A stretch of 64,000 nt of DNA from Sycon ciliatum. Taxonomy: Eukaryota; Porifera; Calcarea; Leucosolenida; Sycettidae. The first letter of the stretch is position 1. Every line of letters begins with the position of its first letter. The notes under the pieces are model-generated. The model worked only from the letters and a program-made list of their open reading frames with translations, was not told the DNA's origin and searched no databases. The stretch covers positions 21,679,631-21,743,630 of the forward strand of contig NC_088654.1 of NCBI RefSeq assembly GCF_964019385.1, written 5' to 3'. A program made the position numbers and the translations under genes. Positions 3,701 to 55,665 of the stretch are shown one piece after another.

Positions 3701-5395
3701 GTGAGGTGAACACACGCGTGGAACAGCAGAATAGTCAAAAGGAATATACATGTAATAGGACAGTCCTAAAACACACGACATGTCAACTATTTACTTCAAC
3801 AAATAACACTGGAAATGGATGAATACAGGAATCATGACAGCTGAGGGTACATAGTGTCAAAGCGACATAACACGAGTATAATGTACATAATAGTACAATT
3901 CTTCTAATAAACTACAGCCGAGAACCACGTAGTCGAAAACTAAACAACATAGGTAAATCAATATTTTGCACATGCACAGACAATTAATATTGAAAAGGTT
4001 CGAACGTTCAGGAAAAAGACATTACTTGCATGACACATTGCCAGCACGAACAAGGCAAACTTCAACATTATGCAGCCGTTGCGTTACCGGTGTTGGGGTG
4101 GCAGTTCCCTTATTGAGGCCGTGCTCGTCGTCGAGCTCGGCTAGATGCCGCCAATCAGTCAGCGCAACCTCGGCCAAACGGTCGCATTAGCTCCAAGTTG
4201 ACGGAGATCCGGGTGACTAACCTGCCGACAAGCTGCCAGTCGCGACTCGACACTGGCCGTCCGGGCACTCTCATCCCTCGCTCCATTCCCTCCTTCACTC
4301 CATTTAATAACTTTGAACTGTTCGCTCTCCCGAAGGAGAGCGCGGAGAAACGTTACTTCTCCAAACATGCGTTGACTAAGCGATGCATGGATGTAATGAT
4401 TACAATCTATATCCCCTACTAAACTTACAACCATTGTACATGTGTATTTTGACTGAAAATTCCGGGGGGTAAAGAGGTGATTTTATTCCCACTAAGGTAT
4501 CTGCAAGCAAAGAAGACGAAATACAGTGCCATCTCAAGAAGACGAAATACAGTGCCATCTCAAGAAGACGAAATACAGTGCCATCTCAAGAAGACGAAAT
4601 ACAGCGCCATCTCAAGAAGACGAAATACAGTGCCATCTCGAGAAGACGAAATACAGTGCCATCTCGAGAAGACGAAATACAGCGCCATCTTAAGAAGACG
4701 AAATACAGTGCCATCTCCTCAAAAATGAGCACATATACACATTCGCCTCCTAAAAACAGATATGTTCCAGGCTGTCCAATAGAGTGCTCAATACTTGCCA
4801 ATAGAGGGCTCAATACTTCTGCTTCAACAGAAGGATCCACAAACATGGAAGCAACAAACCAGCTTCACATATTAGTAGCAAGTACTCTCGTTAGCAGTTA
4901 GTACCCAGTTGCAGGAGTGTCTTATGAGGCGGGTTACAGAACCGTCATTCGCTGGCTTTACTTGTAGTTTTGATAAAGCTTCGCTCTTCATTGAGATATC
5001 TATCATTCTCTCTTCTTTCTCATTAGTTTCTCCCCAACCCTCCTTCCCTGTGACACAATGACATATTTCCTTCCTTGTCATTGAGCATATGTGCTCGTTT
5101 GGATTTGCGAATTTAAATAATTATAGTATACAAACACGACAAACATCTAACAACAATAGCAACTAATCCACAAGACAAGACAGCAAGCAGATCTACAGCA
5201 GATTACAACAGGACCTATGAATTCACAGTAAACATACAACAGGTAAATCCCTAAACTCATGCCAATCCGGTCATCAGCCGCACATTTGCTGAGAGTAGAC
5301 AGCACGATCCAACCCTCTTCTCCGTTACTATCTCAGTCGGTTTCTCCCGGCGGTAACCTTCTCCATCCAACACATCATGTATTAGCAGATGGTGC
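3655..5395. repeat. Long interspersed repeat, copy 1 (paralogue of 19965-22558)
   Basis: The sequence beginning CATAAGCTAAATGAAC matches the one starting near 19,967 closely, including the stretch GAGGAACGAGCGAGACCAGT. The two stay alignable through CTCTCCCGAAGGAGAGCGCG, the block TTTTGACTGAAAATTCCG, a 26-bp minisatellite and the AT-rich part to about 5,395. The block TTTTGACTGAAAATTCCG also appears near 16,537. No coding potential is evident except BEL/Pao gag remnants overlapping the right end on the minus strand, so this may be the non-coding part of an LTR element. Family unknown. Confidence 0.75.
4510..4718. repeat. 26-bp minisatellite, about 8 copies
   Basis: The unit AAGAAGACGAAATACAGTGC followed by CATCTC repeats head to tail about eight times with single-base variants (CAGCGCC, CTCGAG). 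Because 26 is not a multiple of three, all three frames stay open through the array, which creates spurious ORFs. The paralogous repeat at 21,835-21,885 carries only about two units, so copy number has changed since duplication. Confidence 0.9.
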
Positions 5396-19964: not shown

Positions 19965-22558
19965 TAAGCTAGATGAACAAAAGAAATGAGGAACGAGCGA
20001 GACCAGTGAGGTGAACACACGCGTGCAACTGCAGAATAGTCAAAAGGAATACACATGTAATAAGACAGTCCTAAAACACACGATATGTCAACTATTTACT
20101 TCAACAAATAAAACTGGAAATGGATGAATACAGGAATCATGACAACTGACGGTACATAGTGTCAAAGCGACACAACACGAGTATAATATACATAATAGTA
20201 CAATTCTACTAATAAACTACAGCCGAGAACCACGTAGTCGAAAACTAAACAACATAGGTAAATCAATATTTTGCCCATGCACAGACAATTAATTTTGAAA
20301 AGGTTCGAACGTTCATGAAAAAGACATTACTTGTATGACACATTGCCATGACGAACTTCAACATTATGCAGCCGTTGCGTTACCGGTGTTGGGGTGGCAG
20401 TTCCCTTATTGAGGCCGTGCACGTCGTCGAGCTTGGTTAGCCGCGCCAACCAGTCAGCGCAATCTCGCCCAGTATTAGCTCCATGTTGACAGAGCTCCGG
20501 GTGACCTAACCAGCCGAACAGCTGCCAGTCGCGACTCAACACTGGCCGTCCGTGCGCTCTCATCCCTCGCTCCATTCCCTCCTTCACTCCATTTTTAACT
20601 TTGAACTGTTCGCTCTCCCGAAGGAGAGCGCGGAGAAACGTTACTTCTCCAAACATGCGATTACTAAGCGATGCATGGATGTAATGATTTCAATCTCTAG
20701 CCCCTACAAAACTTACTTCCTCCGTGAACAAAAACTTCGTGATGGAATTCTGAGGGGCTGATTTGGGCACAAACTGCCGTGAAATGAGTCGCAATCACTT
20801 TCTTGGCCTTCCCTGGCATGCCATGACAGAGGTACGATGCAAGGAAAGCAACCTTTCACAACAAGCCGAGCGGAATCGATGGTTGCGCTGTGGAAACATA
20901 GGTGATGACAGTCATGGCGAGCGAAACTGAAATACCACTTCTCCGAGGGGATATTGCGCTGCTTGGCCTCTCTACCACTTTAGCGCTGAGTAAGTTGGAG
21001 AGTGATAGACTAGAGAGCGATAAAACGGAGCAGCGAGCCCACACAATGAGCGAGTGAACAAGGAGCTCCTCCGATCGCACGGCTCAATGAAAATAATTCT
21101 GAACTCAAGTTCTTGTTCAACCTGCGCAAAGTACAGATTCGAATGCTGATGACCATGTATTCTTTCAGAAGTCTGCAATCCGATGCGAGTCTCGTGGCTA
21201 AAGAAAGTCGGCTGGACTTGCAAGCCGCTGCCGTTCAGTGCTGGTATCCATTAGAGAAAGTGGAATCAGTTTGGCTGTGCCTTTACTCCTCGTTTCGCGG
21301 AGTTCTGGAGAGCGAAGATGAAACCAGGGGGTCGTAAAATATTTTCACGGCTCCCGGATGGAAACGAGTAATCGCCATCGCGGCGGATCACGCAGCTTGA
21401 AAGCCAACTTACCTGAATGATGGCGACATCAAAGTCAGCGGAGTGTGATCAAAGACGCCGAGGCAAGGCTGAAACGAGCTGAACAACGACTCGAGAGAGA
21501 TGACGACTCGCGTACAGCAGATGACGACTCGCGTGCAGCAGATGACGACAGCGACGCAGGTCAAAAATGAATCGAGCGAAAGCGACGCAAACTGAACTCT
21601 CTGCTCATTCCGCCAACAGTTTCTCTTGTAAAGACGCTGTACATAGGCCGAATCATGATTTGCAGTCGATACAAACTGTTCTTGACCTGTTCTAAGCGTT
21701 TTCATATCCATCAAAATCCATCACGAAGTTTTTGTTAACGGAGGAAGTACAAATATAATAGATGGGTATTTTGACTGAAAATTCCGGGGGGGTAAAGAGG
21801 TGATTTGATTCTCACTAAGGTATCTGCAAGCAAAGAAGACGAAATACAGTGCCATCTCAAGAAGACGAAATACAGTGCCATCTCCTCAAAAATGAGCACA
21901 TATACACCTTCGCCTCCTAAACAGATAATGTTCCAGGCTGTCCAATAGAGTGCTCAATACTTGCCAATAGAGGGCTCAATACTTCTGCTTTAACAGAAGG
22001 AACAACAAACATGGAAGCAACAAACCAGCTTCACATATTAGTAGAAAGTACTCTCGTTCAGTAGCAGTTAGTACCCAGTTGCAGGAGTGTCTTATTAGGC
22101 GGGTTACAGAACCGTCATTCGCTGGCTTTACTTGTAGTTTTCATAACCCTTCGCTCTTCATTGAGATATCATTCTCTCTTCTTTCTCATTAGTTTCTCCC
22201 CAACCCTCCTTCCCTGTGACAGAATGACATATTCGCTTCCTTGTCATTGAGCATTTTGTGCTCGTTTGGATTTGCGAATTTAAAAACACCACAAACATCT
22301 AACAACAACAGCAACTAATCCACAATACAAGGCAGCAAATGACATACCAAGCAGATCTACAGCAGATCACAACAGGACCTATTAATTCACAGTAGACATA
22401 CAATAGGTAAATCCCTCCACTCATGCCAATCCGGTCATCAGCCGCACACTTGCTGAGAGTAGACAGCATGATCCAACCTTCTTCTCCGTTACTATCTCAG
22501 TCAGTTTCTCCTGGCGGTAGCCTTCTCCATCCAACACATCATGTATTAGCAGATGGTG
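19965..22558. repeat. Long interspersed repeat, copy 2, carrying a TIR insertion
   Basis: Aligns with 3,655-5,395 in the same order and orientation. It carries only about two units of the 26-bp minisatellite (21,835-21,885) against about eight in copy 1, plus a 1,032-bp insertion at 20,716-21,747. Similarity stops at about 22,558, where a gypsy pol fragment begins on the minus strand. Confidence 0.8.
20716..21747. mobile_element. 1,032-bp DNA transposon, TA target duplication, 31-bp TIRs
   Basis: The ends begin CTTCCTCCGT and match over 31 bp with one mismatch (left 20,716 on; right ending 21,747). TA flanks both sides (20,714-20,715 and 21,748-21,749). The uninserted site can be read in the paralogous repeats at about 4,425 and 16,513, where the flanking sequence is continuous through a single TA. 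No transposase is recognisable; interior ORFs are short. It is a non-autonomous mariner-type element by TSD and TIR. Confidence 0.9.
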
Positions 22559-30526: not shown

Positions 30527-30534
30527 TAATATTA

Positions 30535-30910
30535 TACACACAACAACAAGGTTGTCAGTTTCATAATACTAAAAGCTTTTCACCCATTTTCATCAGTAGA
30601 TACATGGGAATGAGCAAGAACGAAAACGAAGCCAGAATTTATACTGGGGGTAGAGAATCAGCAAGAATATTCTTACGTGCCTCAAGTTCACACTACACTA
30701 CCATAAGAATGTATGGAGCGGTGGAAAAATGCGGGAAACAACACATGAAGGGAATGCAATGCGCGTAAGAATATTCTTGCTGATTCTCTACCCCCAGTAT
30801 AAGTTCTGGCTTCCTTTTCGTTCTTGCTCATTCCCATGTATCTACTGATGAAAATGGGTGAAAAGCTTTTAGTATTATGAAACTGACAACCTTGTTGTTG
30901 TGTGTATATA
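30535..30910. repeat. Inverted pair of a PLE-associated repeat (palindrome)
   Basis: The left arm (30,538-30,690) contains ACACAACAACAAGGTTGTCA, TCACCCATTTTCATCAGTAG, ATGGGAATGAGCAAGAACGA and ACTGGGGGTAGAGAATCAGC; the right arm (about 30,765-30,905) repeats it in reverse complement, separated by about 80 bp. A third copy in plus orientation lies at 31,350-31,590 directly beside a PLE endonuclease tail. Inverted/tandem terminal copies are known in PLEs. Confidence 0.8.
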
Positions 30911-31161
30911 ATTTTTGTTCGCCTACCTCTCTGTTTGAGTATATATCTATATATAACGCCAGGCATGCGCTAGTTAACTCCAGATTTACATGCTCCATTC
31001 AGCGCTTGTTACAGTAATGGACACTTGATATCAATATTTTACACTGCCTGCACCTAGCAGTAACTCTTCACTCTTCACACTTCACGCTTTCTTTTTGTGC
31101 GCCTTGCTGTGTGGTTGTTTATTTCTTTAGTGGACCTGACAGCCCTGCTTTAGTTAGAAAA

Positions 31162-31204
31162 GTTGCCTGACGATTGAAAAACTCAAGAAACTCGGAGTAG
31201 CAAC
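31162..31204 (+). ncRNA. Hammerhead ribozyme, type I, good pairing
   Basis: Stem I is GTTGC/GCAAC (5 perfect pairs), the core box CTGACGA is at 31,167-31,173, stem II TTGA/TCAA closes AAAAC, GAAA is at 31,187-31,190, stem III is CTC/GAG with one-base loop, and cleavage is predicted after T-A (31,198-31,199). All conserved core positions are present. It is flanked by PLE-derived repeats, and the same family reappears, decayed, at 34,563-34,595. Confidence 0.8.
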
Positions 31205-31349
31205 GTATTGTGTTTTCTTGGTGAGGACCGCTTCCATTGTGTACTAGCTCCAGTGCACCCCAGCGCTGTTGAGCCCTCTTTGCGGTGGACGGGACCACTT
31301 CCCCCTATCTATATATATATTGCTATATTTAAATAGAGAGGTAGGCGAA

Positions 31350-31600
31350 CAAAATTTATATACACACAACAACAAGGTTGTAAGTTTCATAACACTAAAA
31401 GCTTTTCACCCATTTTCATCAGTAGGTACATGGGAATGAGCAAGAACGAAAACGAAGCCAGAATTTATACTGGGGGTAGAGAATCAGCAAGAATATTCTT
31501 ACGCGCCTCAAGTTCACACTACACTACCATAAGAATGTATGGAGCAGTGGAAAAATGCGGGAAACAACACATGAAGGGAATGCAGTACCAGAACAAACAC
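31350..31600 (-). repeat. Third copy of the PLE-associated repeat (PLE 3' UTR)
   Basis: Matches both arms of 30,535-30,910, and on the minus strand follows directly after the stop of the PLE endonuclease tail at 31,613. This places the repeat family as 3' untranslated/terminal sequence of that PLE. Confidence 0.75.
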
Positions 31601-31612
31601 GTGATAAAGTTG

Positions 31613-31807
31613 TCAGTCCGGTTGCAGCTTGAACAGCCGCAGCACCTTGATGTGCTTCTTTTGTCGACACAGCTCTGGCCTCAAACTGCGAATGTACAGC
31701 GCCTCCAGTGTGAATCTGTGCGCGCTGTTCCGGGCTGGTGTGATCACACTGAAGCTGCTGTTGCGTTCCTGCGGGAATATATTGCTATATATATATGCAG
31801 AGCTCAC
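31613..31807 (-). pseudogene. C-terminal tail of a Penelope-like GIY-YIG endonuclease
   Basis: The minus strand ends NSAHRFTLEALYIRSLRPEL...KVLRLFKLQPD and stop. EALYIR.L.PEL is the closing motif of PLE GIY-YIG domains. Only the last ~45 residues are recognisable; the upstream part is replaced by the (TA)n border of the hammerhead array. The copy is therefore severely 5'-truncated. Confidence 0.65.
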
Positions 31808-31903
31808 TGACTTGTCAGTTTGAGCAGTCTGGCAAGGTACGTTCGGGCCTCATTGGAAATTTTTATTTCCATTGCTATCAGGTTCGGCCTCATTTCCTCT
31901 GTG

Positions 31904-31950
31904 CTGCGCTGATGAGTTCAAAAAGAACGAAAACAGCATGCTGTCCGCAG
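31904..31950 (+). ncRNA. Hammerhead ribozyme, array unit 1 (variant)
   Basis: CTGATGA core, stem II GTTC/GAAC with A5 loop, stem III CAGC/GCTG, stem I CTGCG/CGCAG. One extra A in the GAAA box (GAAAA) may weaken catalysis. This is the most diverged plus unit and sits at the array edge. Confidence 0.8.
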
Positions 31951-32133
31951 ATTGAGTATATACGCTCCTGCTCTTGTAGCAGTTGAGCACTCTTGCGTGG
32001 GGTAGTGCCTTTGCTGTTTGCGTTATGCAGAGCTCACTGACTTGTCAGTTTGAGCACTCTGGCAAGGTACGTTCGGGCCTGATTGGAAATTTTTATTTCC
32101 ATTGCCATCAGGTTCGGCCTCATTTCCTCTGTG

Positions 32134-32177
32134 CTGCGCTGACGAGTCCACAAAGGACGAAACAGTTCTGTCCGCAG
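32134..32177 (+). ncRNA. Hammerhead ribozyme, array unit 2
   Basis: Stem I CTGCG/CGCAG, core CTGACGA, stem II GTCC/GGAC around ACAAA, GAAA, stem III CAG/CTG with TT loop, predicted cleavage between 32,172 and 32,173. An outer CTC/GAG pairing beyond an internal loop extends stem I, as needed for tertiary contact with loop II. Confidence 0.9.
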
Positions 32178-32359
32178 ATTGAGTATTTCGCTCCTGCTCT
32201 TGTAGCAGTTGAGCACTCTTGCGTGGGGTAGTGCCTTTGCTGTTTGCGTTATGCAGAGCTCACTGACTTGTCAGTTTGAGCACTCTGGCAAGGTACGTTC
32301 GGGCCTGATTGGAAATTTTTATTTCCATTGCCATCAGGTTCGGCCTCATTTCCTCTGTG

Positions 32360-32403
32360 CTGCGCTGACGAGTCCACAAAGGACGAAACAGTTCTGTCCG
32401 CAG
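32360..32403 (+). ncRNA. Hammerhead ribozyme, array unit 3
   Basis: Same sequence as unit 2, exactly 226 bp downstream; cleavage predicted after 32,398. Confidence 0.9.
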
Positions 32404-32585
32404 ATTGAGTATTTCGCTCCTGCTCTTGTAGCAGTTGAGCACTCTTGCGTTGGGTAGTGCCTTTGCTGTTTGCGTTATGCAGAGCTCACTGACTTGTCAG
32501 TTTGAGCACTCTGGCAAGGTACGTTCGGGCCTGATTGGAAATTTTTATTTCCATTGCCATCAGGTTCGGCCTCATTTCCTCTGTG

Positions 32586-32629
32586 CTGCGCTGACGAGTC
32601 CACAAAGGACGAAACAGTTCTGTCCGCAG
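32586..32629 (+). ncRNA. Hammerhead ribozyme, array unit 4
   Basis: Same sequence as unit 2, 452 bp downstream of it; cleavage predicted after 32,624. Confidence 0.9.
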
Positions 32630-32811
32630 ATTGAGTATTTCGCTCCTGCTCTTGTAGCAGTTGAGCACTCTTGCGTGGGGTAGTGCCTTTGCTGTTTGCG
32701 TTATGCAGAGCTCACTGACTTGTCAGTTTGAGCACTCTGGCAAGGTACGTTCGGGCCTGATTGGAAATTTTTATTTCCATTGCCATCAGGTTCGGCCTCA
32801 TTTCCTCTGTG

Positions 32812-32855
32812 CTGCGCTGACGAGTCCACAAAGGACGAAACAGTTCTGTCCGCAG
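32812..32855 (+). ncRNA. Hammerhead ribozyme, array unit 5
   Basis: Same core as unit 2. The unit is cut just after the ribozyme by the central (TA)n where orientation switches. Confidence 0.9.
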
Positions 32856-32885
32856 ATTGAGTATATATATATATATATACTCAAT

Positions 32886-32931
32886 CTGCGGACAGCAAGC
32901 TGTTTCGTTCTTTTTGAACTCATCAGCGCAG
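32886..32931 (-). ncRNA. Hammerhead ribozyme, minus unit 1
   Basis: The minus strand has the canonical CTGATGA, stem II GTTC/GAAC with A5 loop, GAAA, stem III CAGC/GCTG with TT loop, stem I CTGCG/CGCAG. Compared with plus units 2-5, stem II differs by a compensatory C-G to T-A change, so pairing is preserved. Confidence 0.9.
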
Positions 32932-33113
32932 CACAGAGGAAATGAGGCCGAACCTGATAGCAATGGAAATAAAAATTTCCAATCAGGCCCGAACGTACCT
33001 TGCCAGAGTGCTCAAACTGACAAGTCAGTGAGCTCTGCATAACGCAAACAGCAAAGGCACTACCCCACGCAAGAGTGCTCAACTGCTACAAGAGCAGGAG
33101 CGAAATACTCAAT

Positions 33114-33159
33114 CTGCGGACAGCAAGCTGTTTCGTTCTTTTTGAACTCATCAGCGCAG
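33114..33159 (-). ncRNA. Hammerhead ribozyme, minus unit 2
   Basis: Same as minus unit 1, 228 bp to its right (upstream in minus sense). Confidence 0.9.
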
Positions 33160-33341
33160 CACAGAGGAAATGAGGCCGAACCTGATAGCAATGGAAATAA
33201 AAATTTCCAATCAGGCCCGAACGTACCTTGCCAGAGTGCTCAAACTGACAAGTCAGTGAGCTCTGCATAACGCAAACAGCAAAGGCACTACCCCACGCAA
33301 GAGTGCTCAACTGCTACAAGAGCAGGAGCGAAATACTCAAT

Positions 33342-33387
33342 CTGCGGACAGCAAGCTGTTTCGTTCTTTTTGAACTCATCAGCGCAG
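33342..33387 (-). ncRNA. Hammerhead ribozyme, minus unit 3
   Basis: Same as minus unit 1, 456 bp to its right. The unit is truncated by (TA)n at about 33,450. Confidence 0.9.
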
Positions 33388-33448
33388 CACAGAGGAAATG
33401 AGGCCGAACCTGATAGCAATGGAAATAAAAATTTCCAATCAGGCCCGA

Positions 33449-33485
33449 ATATATATATATATATATCTCCCTCCCTCCCTCCCTC

Positions 33486-34595: not shown

Positions 34596-34699
34596 CGAAC
34601 GATGATGTATCTCTGATGAGGACCTGATCGTGCAGTGTCTATATAATTATATAATTACACTGTTGTGAATTCCAGCAGAAATCCAAGAGAGCTCGATAC

Positions 34700-34835
34700 C
34701 GGGAAGGTAGAGCCGTGACACACTAGTCAGAACAACAGATGGCTTGATCAGTCACAACTTAAAGTTTCATGCCATCTCAGGCACTCATCAGGTGATATGA
34801 ACATCAAGAAAAATAACCCACTATTTAAAGCCCAG
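34700..34835 (-). repeat. PLE terminal repeat, left (inverted partner of 35285-35395)
   Basis: The sequence from CACTAGTCAGAACAACAGAT through ATCAAGAAAAATAACCCACT is the reverse complement of 35,285-35,395. The pair brackets a PLE endonuclease fragment, a structure matching the inverted terminal copies known for PLEs. Confidence 0.85.
34751..34796 (-). ncRNA. Hammerhead ribozyme in PLE terminal repeat, minus
   Basis: The minus strand reads TCAC, CTGATGA, stem II GTGCC/GGCAT around TGAGAT (five pairs, one G-T), GAAA, a CTTTAAG stem III with minimal loop, then TT and GTGA completing stem I. Core positions are intact. Minimal stem III is usual for PLE hammerheads, which act as dimers. Confidence 0.75.
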
Positions 34836-35058
34836 TATGGCGGGACAAGGATAACAGAAAGCGCTAGGGGCGCTATCAACTCATATCCGATTCAGTGTCA
34901 TAGCCAGTAAGGATCGCGGTACTAAGGTGATAAAGATAAAGGTGATAAAACTCAGCTGGCCTAGCTAGTGAGTTCCGCGGTGCAAAGATGATGATGGTGA
35001 CAAGGCGGCAGAGAGCTATCAACTGGCCCTACTGCCTGGAGGCAGGGTGCCGAGAAGA

Positions 35059-35280
35059 TCATATTATCGGTGTTGACAGCATGAATTTATTTTGATGTCG
35101 ACATTTGGATATCAACTCCGACCGCTTGTTGAGGCTCGATCTCCTGTCGGCAGTGATTATTCTCGCCTTCTCCTCGAGGCACAGGCTGCATCTTTTTGTT
35201 ATGTTGCTGTAGGCCTTGGCCTTCTGGACCACTCGCCACTTGATGTCGTGCGTCTTGCCATTATCTTTTAATTCCCACAC
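35059..35280 (-). pseudogene. Penelope-like GIY-YIG endonuclease fragment
   Basis: 73 residues ending in a stop: MWELKDNGKTHDIKWRVV, AKAYSNITKRCSLCLEEK, RRSSLNKRSELISKCRHQNK. It aligns closely with the end of the intact PLE protein at 851-2,611 (AYSNITKRCSLC, SLNKRSEM, KCRHENK), including the terminal Cys/His cluster. It is 5'-truncated exactly where an inverted terminal repeat with a hammerhead begins. Same PLE family as the first element in the window. Confidence 0.9.
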
Positions 35281-35318
35281 ATGCTTTAAATAGTGGGTTA
35301 TTTTTCTTGATGTTCATA

Positions 35319-35362
35319 TCACCTGATGAGTGCCTGAGATGGCATGAAACTTTAAGTTGTGA
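35319..35362 (+). ncRNA. Hammerhead ribozyme in PLE terminal repeat, plus
   Basis: The mirror of 34,751-34,796: CTGATGA at 35,323-35,329, stem II GTGCC/GGCAT, GAAA at 35,346-35,349, cleavage predicted after 35,358. Stem I TCAC/GTGA. Confidence 0.75.
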
Positions 35363-35399
35363 CTGATCAAGCCATCTGTTGTTCTGACTAGTGTGTAAT

Positions 35400-35915
35400 T
35401 ATATAATTATAATTATTATAATTATGTCCTTCCCAACCCATCATCTGGTCAGGAAACGACAAGAAGACAGTGACGAGCAATGAACGCTAGAGGCCCCGAA
35501 GCAGTGAGATAGAGATACAGAGACAGTGAGGAGGTAGATGGAAAGGGACTTGAAAAGACACAGAGAAAACGATCTTCACGGACTACATAGGCAGTATACT
35601 GATACACAGACGCCGTCAGACTCGAAGGGCTGAGGAAAGATTCACATACAGAGAGCGACATCGTGGCAGGGACAGTTAGACAAACAAGAGAGGCAGAGAG
35701 ACGGAGAGATGGAGAGGCAGAGAGGCAGATCGATTGAAACATAGAGGCAGGATGACAGGATGGTTCTATTGTATGTGTGGTTCTTTCATTCTTTCCCACA
35801 GTCCGTGATCACTGGCACCACAACACAACAGACGTTATGGTATAATCTGTGCCTGAAGAAGGCGAGAGCCTCAGCGATCATCTATAATAAATAATTATTG
35901 TAGCATTTATTTATA
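35400..35915. other. Gene-free stretch with degenerate AGAGACAGA-type repeats
   Basis: Between 35,500 and 35,760 the plus strand is rich in GAGACAGAGAG-like words (an old purine microsatellite). No protein domain was recognised. Confidence 0.6.
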
Positions 35916-51169: not shown

Positions 51170-52003
51170 ACTACTCTGCTTTTGGCAGGTGTTCTGGTCG
51201 CTCTGCTTACGCTCCTCGTACTCGTCGTTCGGCTGATAAACGATATCAAGACCGCTCAGCGCGTTAGCCAAGGAAACCGAACGATACATCCGAACTCGGA
51301 ACCGTGGGAGCCAACACCCCGCCTTACGAAAGAGCCGCCTGTGTTTGGAGGAGATTCCGCTACATTCAAAGAATGGACGTTTGCAATGGACATGGCCCTA
51401 CGGTCGTTGGCACTCCCAAATGCGGCACAGAGGGTCGACTACGCGGCAGGATTTTTGACTGGAAACGCTCGTCTTTGGTTGATAGCGGCATTGGAAGCTA
51501 ACCAAGTGTTTTCCGACTGGCCTGCTCTGAAAGCGGCACTTGGCGATGTGTACGGACCACGGCACAACGAGGAAACATCGCGTATGGGACTAATTTCCGC
51601 AGCGCAGCGCGGGTCGCTGGACGCATACATTGCTGCTTTCACTCGCCTCAGCCTGCAAGTGCCGGAAATCGACCACCACACCAGAGCGCTGCTGTTCGTC
51701 AGGGGTCTAGTGCCGCACATCCAGCGACAGGTCATGCGTGAGCATCCACGTACCCTGGAGCAAGCTGTCATGGCAGCAAACACCGTGGAGCAGTCGTCAG
51801 GGCCACCGGCGTCGGGGCCACCAGCCAGTAGAGAGTCGCGTTCCGTGCCCAGCTTCCGTGGTCAGGGCCTCCGCAAGCTGACGGACCAAGAGCGTGTCCA
51901 ACTGCGAGCAATGGGACACTGCTTTGCTTGCAGGAAGCCAGGCCACCTCGCTAAAGACTGTACTGAGGGTGGACAGCGCTACCCAAACGCTGGTCGCCAG
52001 TAA
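51164..52003 (+). CDS. Gag of the Ty3/gypsy element, 279 aa
   Basis: Capsid/nucleocapsid precursor that would form the particle and bind element RNA. The central region (FGGDSATFKEWTFAMDMAL, GNARLWLIAAL, DVYGPRHNEETSRMGL, LDAYIAAFTRLSLQVP) resembles the retrotransposon gag domain; a CCHC knuckle CFACRKPGHLAKDC is at residues 253-266. Unusually, the first 25 residues after the ATG are strongly hydrophobic (LLLAGVLVALLTLLVLVV), like a membrane anchor. The ATG overlaps the PBS and no other upstream start is obvious. A later Met (about residue 106) would drop this segment but also part of the capsid. The stop overlaps the pol frame by 37 bp. Confidence 0.9.
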   Translation: MVTTLLLAGVLVALLTLLVLVVRLINDIKTAQRVSQGNRTIHPNSEPWEPTPRLTKEPPVFGGDSATFKEWTFAMDMALRSLALPNAAQRVDYAAGFLTGNARLWLIAALEANQVFSDWPALKAALGDVYGPRHNEETSRMGLISAAQRGSLDAYIAAFTRLSLQVPEIDHHTRALLFVRGLVPHIQRQVMREHPRTLEQAVMAANTVEQSSGPPASGPPASRESRSVPSFRGQGLRKLTDQERVQLRAMGHCFACRKPGHLAKDCTEGGQRYPNAGRQ

Positions 52004-55000
52004 GAAAGGGGGTGCGCTTACTGGCGACGACCCAAGCGCCCACGCCGGTACCAGTCGCTAACCGGTTCGGAGCTCTGGAGGTTGAAGACGTTGCTCTCCA
52101 GGAACCTACGGAGCCGGAGACACCCATAGCTGTAGGAAATTGTCCGGTTGCAGAAGGGTGTCATGTCAGCAACGTCAGCGTCGGCAATGAACCTGAACGC
52201 GACCTACTGCGCATACAGGGAAAGATCGGCGGTCGCCGTGCAGTGATGCTGATAGATTCCGGTTCGACGCATGACTTCATTGCAGACAGTTTTGTTCGAA
52301 AGCATCATCTTGACACGGATGCAAGCTCAGCAGTGCTGAGCGTAACATTGGCGGACGGCTCGACCAGCGAGGTCCCGCAGATTTCCACACGCACGCTAAG
52401 GGTGACAGTCGGGGGCTTCAGTGAGGAACAGCACTTTACTGTGTATCCCCTGACTCGCTACGACGCTATTCTTGGCAAGCCGTGGCTTACAAGGAACAAC
52501 CCCAGCATCAACTTCCGTACGAACGAAGTTCAGTTGGACGGTGAGCCCTTTGTTGCCAAATTGCCTTCAGCTAACCCGCCGACAGCCGACCGGCCATCTG
52601 TGGAAAGCATGTTTATCAGTGGCCGACAAGCTCGTCATGCCCTGAGGAGTGGAGCCGAGGGGTTTCTTGCATGGGTCACTGCTGCAAACGAGGAGAATCG
52701 TTCCGGGCCACAACTCCAGGAATCAGAGCAACAAGACATCCAGAACCTGCTCAAGAGGTACCAGGATTTATTTCCAGACGAGCTGCCGAATGAGCTTCCA
52801 CCGAAGAGACCAGTCGACCATGAAATCCAGATAGAAGATGGAGCCAGACCACCGTCTCGACCCGCCTACCGCCTGCCGAAACCAGAGATGGACGAGCTCC
52901 AGTCACAGCTATCAGAATTACTTGAGAAGGGATTCATTGAGCCAAGTAAGTCGCCATACGGTGCACCTGTGTTTTTTGTGAAAAAGTCGGATGGTACTCT
53001 GAGAATGGTGTGCGATTGGCGAGAATTGAATAGAATTACGATCAAAAACAAAGCTTGTCTTCCTAATATTGATGACTTATTCGACACGATCCAGGGCAGT
53101 GCATATTTCTCCAAGTTGGACTTGCGGTCAGGCTACAATCAAATCAGAATTCAAGACTCGGATGTTTCTAAGACGGCCATTAATACGCCGTTCGGCCACT
53201 TCCAATTTAGAGTCATGGGATTCGGGCTGACTAATGCCCCGGCCACCTTTCAGTCTCTCATGAACTCTATTCTGCAACCGCATCTCCGAAAATTCGTTGT
53301 AGTATTCTTGGATGACATTCTAGTTTTCAGCAAGACCTGGGAAGAACATCAGCATCATCTTCAAACAGTTCTAGAAACACTTAGAAATAGTGAGCTGTAT
53401 TGCAAACAGTCTAAATGCGAATTCGGCGTGAGAGAAGTTCTCTTCTTGGGGCATAAAATCAACGGCACATCAATTTCCCCTGATCCCAAGAAGATAAGTG
53501 CTGTGGAAACATGGCCAACTCCGTCGTCAGTAACTGATGTGAGGAAGTTTCTTGGCTTTGCAAACTATTTCCGAAGGTTCATAGATCGACACTCGACCAT
53601 CTCTGGTCCATTAGAAGAAATCACCGGAAAAAATTCACGCTTTGAATGGAGCGCTGCTAGACAGAAGGCATTTGAGTCTCTAAAATCAGCATTACTCGAG
53701 GCGCCAGTGTTGCAACTGGCCGATGTTGAGAAAAGCTTCATGGTAGAAACTGACGCAAGTGACTTTGCAGTGGCGGGTGTGCTCCTGCAGCAGGGAGAAG
53801 ATATGGATTTGCATCCCGTAGCCTATTGTAGTCGGAAACTGTCAGCTGCAGAACGCAACTATACTGCGGCCGAGAGGGAAACGTTGGCTGTGGTATTTGC
53901 ATTAAAGTGCTGGAGAATCTATCTATTCCGCCACTTTGACCTGATGACTGATAATATGGGTGTTGTCTATTTACGAACCAAACCGACTCTCACCAAGCGT
54001 GAGGCAAGATGGGTAGAGTTTTTAGCTGACTATGACTTTACGGTCTTTCACAAACCAGGAAAGAAAAACATTGCCGACCCGCTTTCACGCCGTCCAGATC
54101 TGTTCAGTGATTCTGAAATAGGCGGGTCATCCTATCCTCCTAACATTCAGTTGAATGCCATAGAGCATACCCTAGAGATTAATCCAGACTTAGCGCAGTT
54201 AATTGTCAGCGGTTACAAGTGCGACAAGGATCTTGCTCCCATTATCAGGAGACTGAAAAATTCAAGCCATGACAATCTGCACGACCGTTACCTTCTAAAT
54301 GAAACACCCGGTTATCTTTATCTCAGATCTTCACCACAGAACCGGTTATGCATTCCAAAGAGTAGCAAACTCCGACTCGCCCTGCTTCAAGAATACCATG
54401 ACTGTGTGACTGCGGGGCATCCCGGTCGAGATCGCACCTATTTCAGACTCTCTAGATATTTCTATTGGCCCAGAATGGGACTGGATGTAAAGGCCTTTGT
54501 CAAGTCATGTGACGTCTGCCAACGAGTTAAAGGCGGCCAGCTAAAAACTGGTCTCTTGCAGAATTTACCAGTGCCCAGTCAGCCGTGGGCAGATATCTCG
54601 ATGGATTTTATCATGGGTTTGCCTAGGACCGACAAAGGTCATGATGCTATATATGTATTTGTAGACCGCTTGACAAAGTGTGTACATTTAGCACCTACTT
54701 CCTCTACTATTGACGCTAAAGGAAGTGCTGATCTGTATATTCAACATGTATTTCGACTTCATGGTTTGAGTTCTAGTATTGTATGTGATCGTGATCCAAG
54801 ATTTACGGCAGCATTTTTTCAGGAATTGTTTGATCGCTTAGGAACGAAACTAGCATTTAGTACTGCCAATCACCCTCAGACAGATGGCCTAACTGAACGA
54901 GTAAACAGAATAGTAGAGGATGTGCTGAGGGCTTTTGTAAATCATAAACAAGATAACTGGGATATGCTCCTACCTCTCTGTGAGTTTTCTATCAACAGCG

Positions 55001-55665
55001 CTACTCAATCATCTACAGGAAACACACCGTTCTTCTTAAATTACGGTCTAAATCCCAGAGCGCCACCCGACTTCCTCAACCCTATTCAGGGAGGCAGAGA
55101 TTCAGCTGATTGGTTGCAAGCAAGACAAGACGCGGTCAAGATCTCACAAGATGCGCTAGTGGCAGCTCAAGCTCGTCAGGCCTTCTATGCAGATCGGACA
55201 AGGGTCGAGGGAAAGCTGAAGGTGGGAGATTTGGTAATGGTCTACCGGGATTTCCTCCTGACTCCTGAAGCTCGGGACCGACCATCCCATAAATTACGCC
55301 CCAAGTGGTTTGGCCCCTTTCCTATAACCCATGTGGTCGGCCCGAATGCCTACAAGCTCAAGTTGCCTCATACCAGCCGCTGTCACCCGGTATTTAATGT
55401 GTCGGCACTCCGTGCCTACGAGAAGAACGCTATTCCTAATAGGAGACAGCCTACGCCTCCGCCTATCACGGACCTTGATGGTCATGCCCGCTATGTGGTG
55501 GAGAACATTCTCAGTCACCGCCGCCGGCAGAATCAGCTTCAGTACCTAGTCAAGTGGCAAGGCTACTCTGATGCCACTTGGGAGCCTGAACATTATTTGT
55601 TGGATGAATCTGGTAATGACATTGTTCCACTTCAGAAGTACAAAACCTTGGCTTCTGCCCGCTGA
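51967..55665 (+). CDS. Pol of the Ty3/gypsy element (protease, RT, RNase H, integrase, chromodomain)
   Basis: Numbering from the GTG at 52,012: aspartic protease LIDSGSTHDF (Asp82); RT with YFSKLDLRSGYNQI, MGFGLTNAPATF and FLDD at 432-435; RNase H beginning ETDASDFAVAGVLL (Asp581); integrase zinc domain His796/His803/Cys833/Cys836; catalytic Asp865, Asp926 and Glu962 (35 residues between the last two); a C-terminal chromodomain about 1,160-1,207 (YVVENIL, LVKWQGYSDATWEPE). The order RT-RH-IN is Ty3/gypsy, and the chromodomain marks chromovirus-type elements that target chromatin marks. No in-frame stops. Entry is probably by -1 frameshift from gag, since no ATG precedes the protease region. 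Confidence 0.95.
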   Translation, partial: GWTALPKRWSPVRKGVRLLATTQAPTPVPVANRFGALEVEDVALQEPTEPETPIAVGNCPVAEGCHVSNVSVGNEPERDLLRIQGKIGGRRAVMLIDSGSTHDFIADSFVRKHHLDTDASSAVLSVTLADGSTSEVPQISTRTLRVTVGGFSEEQHFTVYPLTRYDAILGKPWLTRNNPSINFRTNEVQLDGEPFVAKLPSANPPTADRPSVESMFISGRQARHALRSGAEGFLAWVTAANEENRSGPQLQESEQQDIQNLLKRYQDLFPDELPNELPPKRPVDHEIQIEDGARPPSRPAYRLPKPEMDELQSQLSELLEKGFIEPSKSPYGAPVFFVKKSDGTLRMVCDWRELNRITIKNKACLPNIDDLFDTIQGSAYFSKLDLRSGYNQIRIQDSDVSKTAINTPFGHFQFRVMGFGLTNAPATFQSLMNSILQPHLRKFVVVFLDDILVFSKTWEEHQHHLQTVLETLRNSELYCKQSKCEFGVREVLFLGHKINGTSISPDPKKISAVETWPTPSSVTDVRKFLGFANYFRRFIDRHSTISGPLEEITGKNSRFEWSAARQKAFESLKSALLEAPVLQLADVEKSFMVETDASDFAVAGVLLQQGEDMDLHPVAYCSRKLSAAERNYTAAERETLAVVFALKCWRIYLFRHFDLMTDNMGVVYLRTKPTLTKREARWVEFLADYDFTVFHKPGKKNIADPLSRRPDLFSDSEIGGSSYPPNIQLNAIEHTLEINPDLAQLIVSGYKCDKDLAPIIRRLKNSSHDNLHDRYLLNETPGYLYLRSSPQNRLCIPKSSKLRLALLQEYHDCVTAGHPGRDRTYFRLSRYFYWPRMGLDVKAFVKSCDVCQRVKGGQLKTGLLQNLPVPSQPWADISMDFIMGLPRTDKGHDAIYVFVDRLTKCVHLAPTSSTIDAKGSADLYIQHVFRLHGLSSSIVCDRDPRFTAAFFQELFDRLGTKLAFSTANHPQTDGLTERVNRIVEDVLRAFVNHKQDNWDMLLPLCEFSINSATQSSTGNTPFFLNYGLNPRAPPDFLNPIQGGRDSADWLQARQDAVKISQDALVAAQARQAFYADRTRVEGKLKVGDLVMVYRDFLLTPEARDRPSHKLRPKWFGPFPITHVVGPNAYKLKLPHTSRCHPVFNVSALRAYEKNAIPNRRQPTPPPITDLDGHARYVVENILSHRRRQNQLQYLVKWQGYSDATWEPEHYLLDESGNDIVPLQKYKTLASAR
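51982..51988 (+). promoter_or_regulatory. Candidate -1 ribosomal frameshift heptamer CCCAAAC
   Basis: In the gag frame this reads C CCA AAC, fitting X XXY YYZ. The pol frame is -1 relative to gag and is open from 51,967, so the heptamer lies within the 37-bp overlap, five codons before the gag stop. Pol has no ATG nearby, so a shift here would give Gag-Pol. Confidence 0.65.

Follow-up and report, generated by a model that had tools for sequence, protein, structure and literature searches.

Retrozyme insertions with a common 3' end at TA tracts, in chains with a Penelope-like element, in the sponge Sycon ciliatum

Three retrozyme insertions in one TA tract

The window analysed here is a stretch of 64,000 nt from the calcareous sponge Sycon ciliatum (assembly GCF_964019385.1, contig NC_088654.1, positions 21,679,631 to 21,743,630 of the forward strand), and near its middle lie tandem units of a small hammerhead-bearing element that we call RZ1, next to a fragment of a Penelope-like element (PLE). 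Positions below are those of the window; loci elsewhere in the host genome (538 Mb in 313 contigs) are labelled L001 onwards. On the + strand, 31794-32864 is a tandem array of period 226, and on the - strand 32877-33449 is a tandem array of period 228. A first-pass annotation of the window had reported these tandem units on both strands, together with the (TA)n at the centre (32862-32879) and at both ends (31786-31796 and 33449-33466), all of which we find as described. It had called the layout head-to-head; both strands read towards the central (TA)n, and the two halves are tail-to-tail. It had also suggested two insertions or one rearranged insertion. The + half splits at 31956/31963 around TATATA, and we read the array as three RZ1 insertions in one (TA)n tract, with a common 3' end and the last one inverted, rather than as a single inverted array, because of the common 3' end letters, the TATATA spacer and the mid-unit start of insertion 2. 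The features of the chain are as follows.

31152..31320 (extent approximate), + strand: further hammerhead-bearing piece of the same chain, core at 31167, predicted cut after 31199
31786..31796, no strand: left TA tract (TA run), target flank
31794..31956, + strand: RZ1 insertion 1, A' variant: 0.7 unit whose single hammerhead has an additional A; CGCAGATTGAG at the 3' end (GATTGAG at 31956)
31957..31962, no strand: TATATA spacer separating insertion 1 from insertion 2
31963..32861, + strand: RZ1 insertion 2, B variant: mid-unit start, 3.98 units of 226 nt that include four strict hammerheads; CGCAGATTGAG at the 3' end
32862..32879, no strand: central TA tract (TA run), separating two 3' ends
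32880..33449, - strand: RZ1 insertion 3, A variant: 2.5 units of 228 nt that include three strict hammerheads; CGCAGATTGAG at the 3' end (32880)
33449..33466, no strand: right TA tract (TA run)

There is one variable site among the four B copies of insertion 2. A template switch within the + array was considered and dropped, as the TATATA spacer and the GATTGAG end identify two insertions. The GC content of the B unit is 50.0% and that of the A unit 48.2%, at the edge of the published range for animal retrozymes, which is given as below 50% in the text and below 45% in a figure legend of PMC7229834. The longest stop-free stretch is 83 codons in the fourfold B unit and 75 in the A unit.

Hammerhead motifs

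The RZ1 hammerhead is of type I, with a short loop closing stem III and stem I open, and thus not of the type III found in plant LTR retrozymes. A strict hammerhead descriptor finds four + cores in the array, with predicted cuts after 32172, 32398, 32624 and 32850, and three - cores, with predicted cuts after 33347, 33119 and 32891 on the - strand. The earlier count was five + and three - complete type I cores. Its three - cores and four of its + cores stand, and the fifth + core, that of A' (about 31892-31967), has an extra A that separates GAA from stem III, fails the strict descriptor and has the lowest Rfam score; it may be weaker as a ribozyme. The B hammerheads are these.

32133..32178, + strand: type I hammerhead, predicted cut after 32172, found by the descriptor; Rfam Hammerhead_1 30.1 bits (gathering score 34)
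32359-32404, 32585-32630 and 32811-32856, + strand: repeats of the same B hammerhead, found by the descriptor

Self-cleavage of the array would give products of 227, 226, 226 and 226 nt from the + strand and of 228 nt twice from the - strand, instead of the uniform 226-nt RNAs first supposed. In the rest of the window the strict descriptor identifies three more motifs, at 31167 (+), 34791 (-) and 35323 (+). When at least 4 pairs per stem are demanded, the descriptor has 10 matches in the whole window compared to a mean of 0.0 in 100 dinucleotide shuffles. The covariance-model search that had been proposed as a check reports no Rfam match in the window at gathering score, and below that score eight Hammerhead_1/HH9 matches with 23.8-30.9 bits and E-values from 0.006 to 3e-5; at four places elsewhere in the same genome the matches are above gathering score. 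The best Rfam E-values belong to miRNA families, which we rejected since they match the palindrome formed by the inverted halves.

The compensatory change in stem II noted in the first pass (GTCC/GGAC versus GTTC/GAAC) is present. We aligned 15 distinct hammerheads of the genome, including those of a second family described below, leaving out two PLE-type motifs and adding three others. In this alignment 96.9% of the cells are paired, changes on both sides occur in 4 pairs (13 cells) of stems I and II, and sliding the partners destroys the pairing. The number of pairs changed on both sides is reached by 31/500 shuffles, and the number of further pair types by 365/500, that is, not above shuffles. 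Covariation thus supports the hammerhead fold, though not as strong statistics.

At two other loci (L012 446-546 and L072 2331-2428) we observe overlapping inverted hammerhead-like motifs, GTTGCCTGAAGAGTGC...GCACGAAAC, with one stem I in common.

RZ1 junctions across the genome

A search of the genome with the B unit returns at least 64 matches. RZ1 units that are 100% identical occur on three chromosomes, including C5 and C11, and are therefore recent. The junction set has 57 insertions, of which 54 have readable 3' ends and 46 have both flanks. The statistics leave out the overlapping or near-duplicate loci L010, L013, L014, L016, L017, L018, L019 and L051 and six weak or other-family matches (two in L011 and one each in L026, L030, L033 and L039), and they count window insertions 1 and 2 as one row.

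The 3' end is fixed. It falls at +9 to +17 from the predicted cut site in 47/54 insertions, and in 40/45 after removal of eight loci that had been found through the hammerhead model. The binomial value for evenly spread 3' ends is 2e-58, which is no true probability as the copies are related. Of the seven ends outside this range, those of L033 (1501-1700) and L037 (833-1011) lie at CAGAT (+7); both copies lack the hammerhead that would separate the stem I strands, as though the enzyme had jumped over the folded ribozyme during reverse transcription.

The 5' ends are scattered over the unit. Only three insertions (L024, L028 and L030) have the 5' end exactly at the cut site, and 51/54 have it elsewhere; the three hint at some templates with a cut 5' end. 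Inserts longer than 240 nt make up 19/53. A surplus of 5' ends one full circle past the start was considered as a signature of circles and discarded: some 5' ends are near that position, and TA matches at the 5' junctions explain them equally well.

The insertions carry target duplications. The longest stretch common to both flanks has a mean of 10.2 nt over the 46 insertions, compared to 4.9 nt when flanks are swapped between loci, and the highest of 200 permutations gives 5.4. Duplications of at least 8 nt occur in 28/46 insertions versus 5.5% with swapped flanks, and 19 of these 28 start with TA, which is 4.8% of the dinucleotides of the window. Among the flank matches, that of L028 consists of element letters and those of L009 (twice) and L012 are plain TA runs; clean non-repetitive target duplications are found in L015, L027, L050 and L006.

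A second family, RZ2

The units of RZ2, an independent family distantly related to RZ1 (72% in parts), measure 237 nt and carry GGCC/GGCC as stem II; the genome has 1168 first-look candidates for it versus 66 for RZ1. We sampled 10 + strand arrays, chosen by us from those with both ends listed among 108 matches, and all 10 have their 3' end at +12 (TACAGCATTGGG, with a mutation in L105). The flanks have at least 9 nt in common in 8/10 arrays; one of these eight long matches (L098/L099) begins at +19, not at +13 or +14, and the arrays L092/L093 and L096/L097, whose ends are almost identical, may go back to a single event. The mean flank match is 11.3 nt compared to 6.7 nt with swapped flanks, of which a quarter also reach at least 8 nt because most targets are TA-rich.

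The Penelope-like element

The PLE pieces next to the array are the following; that the direct neighbour is a PLE fragment had been said in the first pass and proves right.

30533..30758, - strand: PLE 3' end without tail, TA next
30761..30939, + strand: PLE 3' end with tail, TA next
31338..31776, - strand: 5'-truncated PLE copy with tail, 3' end of PLE, direct repeat ATATATTGCTATAT on both flanks

In the genome this family has 87 matches among the best 40 of 555 first-look candidates that were scored, with many near-identical copies. Tandem copies occur, as in L076, where a pair has a period of 2739 bp. In the L076 copy, which belongs to one cluster with L057, L058 and L059, a frame of 843 codons is open, giving 838 aa from the first ATG; the protein matches RVT_1 at 2.4e-10 and has 986 homologues among 7995 candidates scored. 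The predicted structure of a relative (about 50% identical, mean pLDDT 88.7) has telomerase reverse transcriptases as its best fold matches, as expected for a PLE, in a search dominated by the reverse transcriptase part. A single-sequence model of the window's other PLE frame was uninformative (mean pLDDT 37). Just 5' of the PLE start codon are the letters CTGATGA...GAAA; the strict descriptor does not report the window copy.

The PLE 3' ends, counting identical 130-nt contexts once, come in two alternatives about 30 bp apart, with the tail in 42/58 and none in 16/58, which is the tail signature published for PLEs. Of these ends, 48/58 lead into a TA run that is 8 nt or longer. The ends are carried by 31 sources; one listing gives 59 ends, and our counts use 58.

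Two structures related to the PLE stand apart. In L037, 116-824 is a 291-bp tandem of PLE 5' and 3' ends, perhaps a PLE-derived non-coding relative of retrozymes. In the window, 34644-35409 is a second PLE-type insertion with TAATTATATAATTA at both ends; its 114-nt arms at 34718-34831 (-) and 35283-35396 (+) each include a strict hammerhead and are 100% complementary, their 3' tails differ, and a PLE C-terminus lies at 35298-35077 (-). Simultaneous priming from both strands could have produced it.

Mixed chains at TA tracts

RZ1, RZ2 and the PLE stack on one another. Beyond 14 of the 58 PLE ends the next element is another PLE in inverted orientation; these 14 rows make up seven tail-to-tail PLE pairs, found at seven loci. 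Retrozymes come next in 16 rows, 10 of them pointing the same way and 6 inverted, and the remaining 28 rows have some other neighbour. The 16 retrozyme rows correspond to 14 pieces at 11 loci plus the window, or 13 pieces without the window; the 11 loci had been fetched with the PLE query, the window row (30555) rests on 6 letters, and the pieces in L062 (about 11 letters) and L081 are each seen from both sides. We estimate a chance contact of retrozyme and PLE within a few hundred bases at less than 1% per end, if the copies number in the low thousands in 538 Mb. Chains with RZ2 include PLE, RZ2 and RZ1 (L096/L097), RZ2 and inverted RZ1 (L105), and RZ1 and RZ2 (L098).

L021 illustrates the stacking at a non-repetitive target: TAGTGAAGAT stands there three times, ahead of the + insert, in the gap that separates the 3' ends, and behind the - insert. 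Two successive opposite insertions into the same site would leave this triple, and the window array follows the same logic with TA as target. Simultaneous priming on both strands of one break was rejected as the cause of tail-to-tail pairs, as it would put the 3' ends outside.

In L061, L064, L072, L082, L083 and L086, other short sequences recur beside PLE ends over TA tracts, and there may be more families that use the same TA sites as the PLE.

How the insertions may arise

In RZ1, 3' ends are fixed, 5' ends are scattered, targets are duplicated and often begin with TA, and insertions stack with PLEs. Since the fixed 3' end lies past the cut site, the template spans the junction, as a circle or an uncut multimer; inserts that end 11-12 nt beyond the cut site were not copied from the end of a linear unit, because a twice-cut linear RNA ends at the cut site. 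RZ1 appears to be non-autonomous and non-coding, and it is probably moved in trans by the PLE enzyme, target-primed at TA on an RNA that spans the cut-site junction. The first-pass annotation had named PLE machinery as a candidate driver, and that candidacy is now stronger: PLE copies sit at the TA tracts that retrozymes also use, their 3' ends come in two alternatives, and at 11 loci they adjoin retrozymes.

We infer transcription, cleavage, circularity, the identity of the enzyme and the pairing of the primer with UAU from sequence, and the steps would be as follows. Tandem RZ1 copies would be transcribed, the hammerheads would cut the RNA to units of 226-228 nt, and a host ligase would close these to circles. 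The PLE reverse transcriptase/endonuclease would cut DNA at TA, often within (TA)n, and the cut strand would act as primer for reverse transcription, with a fixed start at the UAU that the RNA carries 11-12 nt downstream of the hammerhead cut; the nicked TA end may pair with this UAU at the start, as the duplications mostly begin with TA. The template across the junction would more likely be a circle, otherwise an uncut multimer. Copying would vary in length from a fraction of a unit to several rounds, giving 5'-truncated or tandem inserts with target duplications, and repeated hits on the same TA site in either orientation would build chains of retrozymes and PLEs with short TA tracts between them. 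In a more specific form that we put forward tentatively, the circular retrozyme RNA is the template, the hammerhead marks where PLE copying starts, and the enzyme, once nicked TA ends have paired with the UAU 11-12 nt past the ligation site, copies its way round the circle; new TA sites would be left by every insertion, so that several ribozyme families form mixed chains.

Several points weigh against a PLE-driven origin of this kind. By score, 7/54 RZ1 3' ends are outside +9 to +17 (one of these seven rows, L002, has the usual 3' end when read by eye), the scatter of the 5' ends is imperfectly even (Kolmogorov-Smirnov p 0.02), and 28/58 PLE ends adjoin something other than a PLE or a retrozyme. 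The survey of 3' ends at TA tracts covers RZ1, RZ2 and the PLE. The minimum-energy fold predicted for the circle lacks hammerhead stem I in both variants; that circle is predicted to be stabler than shuffles (z -3.3 and -2.9, with mononucleotide shuffles, which do not keep dinucleotides). The PLE protein (L076) has no Pfam match to GIY-YIG even at E 10. In the C-terminus of 22 relatives Y738-x-G740, R749 and H753 are invariant and E809 nearly so, a pattern that would fit a GIY-YIG motif. Finally, for a PLE of Anolis in vitro, the main text of PMC11167929 describes the hammerhead as dispensable and uncut RNA as the main substrate, with a start that lies much further downstream and shares no homology with the cut DNA, in contrast to the UA match that we propose.

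The Anolis result is why we keep as the main rival the same PLE-type target-primed insertion with an uncut linear multimer as template, the circle being a by-product. Arrays already in the genome could supply such a multimer, and the three 5' ends exactly at the cut site are expected for run-off at a cut 5' end. Related animal retrozymes accumulate mostly as circles, by the account in the main text of PMC7229834, and 51/54 5' ends are off the cut site, though incomplete copying would explain that too; on balance we consider a multimer template rather unlikely.

Less probable still is a long interspersed nuclear element (LINE) or another TA-favouring reverse transcriptase as the driver, with the PLE merely having the (TA)n hot spot in common. 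Target duplications of 8-17 bp fit LINEs too, the window has several other reverse transcriptase frames, and other short repeat families likewise end at these TA tracts. Set against this, it is the PLE that recurs in the same chains, and its fixed internal end is of the same type and close to a hammerhead-like motif, a weak argument as the survey covers the ends of RZ1, RZ2 and the PLE.

A plain satellite, grown by unequal crossing-over and duplication with no RNA stage, would account for the long arrays (L017/L039 and L022/L040) and for three near-identical arrays on C13, and is very improbable given the fixed 3' end, the scattered 5' ends, the target duplications and the single partial copies at many sites. 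That the inverted half of the window array is an assembly artefact, as its palindromic, low-complexity centre and an N gap about 350 bp away might suggest, is hardly credible when the halves are different variants (226-nt B and 228-nt A) and similar tail-to-tail junctions exist elsewhere, in L021 at a non-repetitive target and in seven PLE pairs.

Comparison with known systems

Unit size (within the roughly 150-450 bp of the class), the type I hammerhead, the tandem layout, target duplications and dispersed near-identical copies support RZ1 as a new family of the known non-LTR (long terminal repeat) animal retrozymes, and agree with the first description of the array as retrozyme-like. The non-LTR retrozymes of coral, mussel and axolotl have type I hammerheads and tandem units of about 170-400 nt without LTR features (Cervera and de la Pena 2020, PMC7229834); when present their target duplications are longer than 4 bp, and PLEs occur in the same genomes. 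PLEs as the driver and a circle-templated tandem cDNA have already been proposed for them in that paper. What differs here is that a fixed 3' end 11-12 nt past the cut, TA targets and mixed PLE chains are documented. The words "microsatellite", "target site", "inverted" and "polarity" are absent from the main text of PMC7229834, and in a mostly open-access literature, taken as main texts without supplements, we found neither a fixed start past the cut site nor mixed chains in print.

PAc, the PLE of Anolis, has two internal start sites of reverse transcription, which define its tail; it favours targets rich in AT, where both strands are cut and extended (Frangieh et al. 2024, PMC11167929). The likeness to the Sycon elements covers the two internal starts with an optional tail, the AT-rich targets, both-strand cutting and extension, tandem copies, and a hammerhead upstream of the start. 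PAc starts 111-118 nt into its frame with the cut at 26, whereas the retrozymes start 11-12 nt past the cut, are apparently non-coding, and have a UA beside the start, in agreement with the TA target. Penelope elements of Adineta vaga share inverted pLTRs, an optional 31-bp tail, duplications of 8-10 bp and foreign sequence mobilised in trans (PMC3846280); their inverted repeats are mostly head-to-head, whereas here tail-to-tail pairs over TA tracts are common. The LTR retrozymes of plants are small non-coding retroelements with hammerheads and circular RNA, as RZ1 would be, and differ by type III hammerheads placed in LTRs, a primer binding site, a polypurine tract and 4-bp duplications (PMC7761336). 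Viral contigs gave 0 matches to one pattern.

Other features of the window

A long open gag-pol-like frame of 1232 codons at 51967-55665 includes protease, reverse transcriptase, RNase H, integrase and chromo domains. Two places 17 kb apart, 4510-4818 and 21833-21984, share their 26-bp and 22-bp tandem units.

Implications

Which enzyme and which form of RNA move animal retrozymes is an open question in the literature (main texts of PMC7229834 and PMC7761336). A fixed start in two families, together with a PLE that has an open frame and the same targets, makes both questions testable. If the reading is true, retrozyme insertions in any animal could be recognised, and their driver identified, with the fixed 3' end as genomic signature, and inverted ribozyme arrays would be explained by repeated insertions, without rearrangement.

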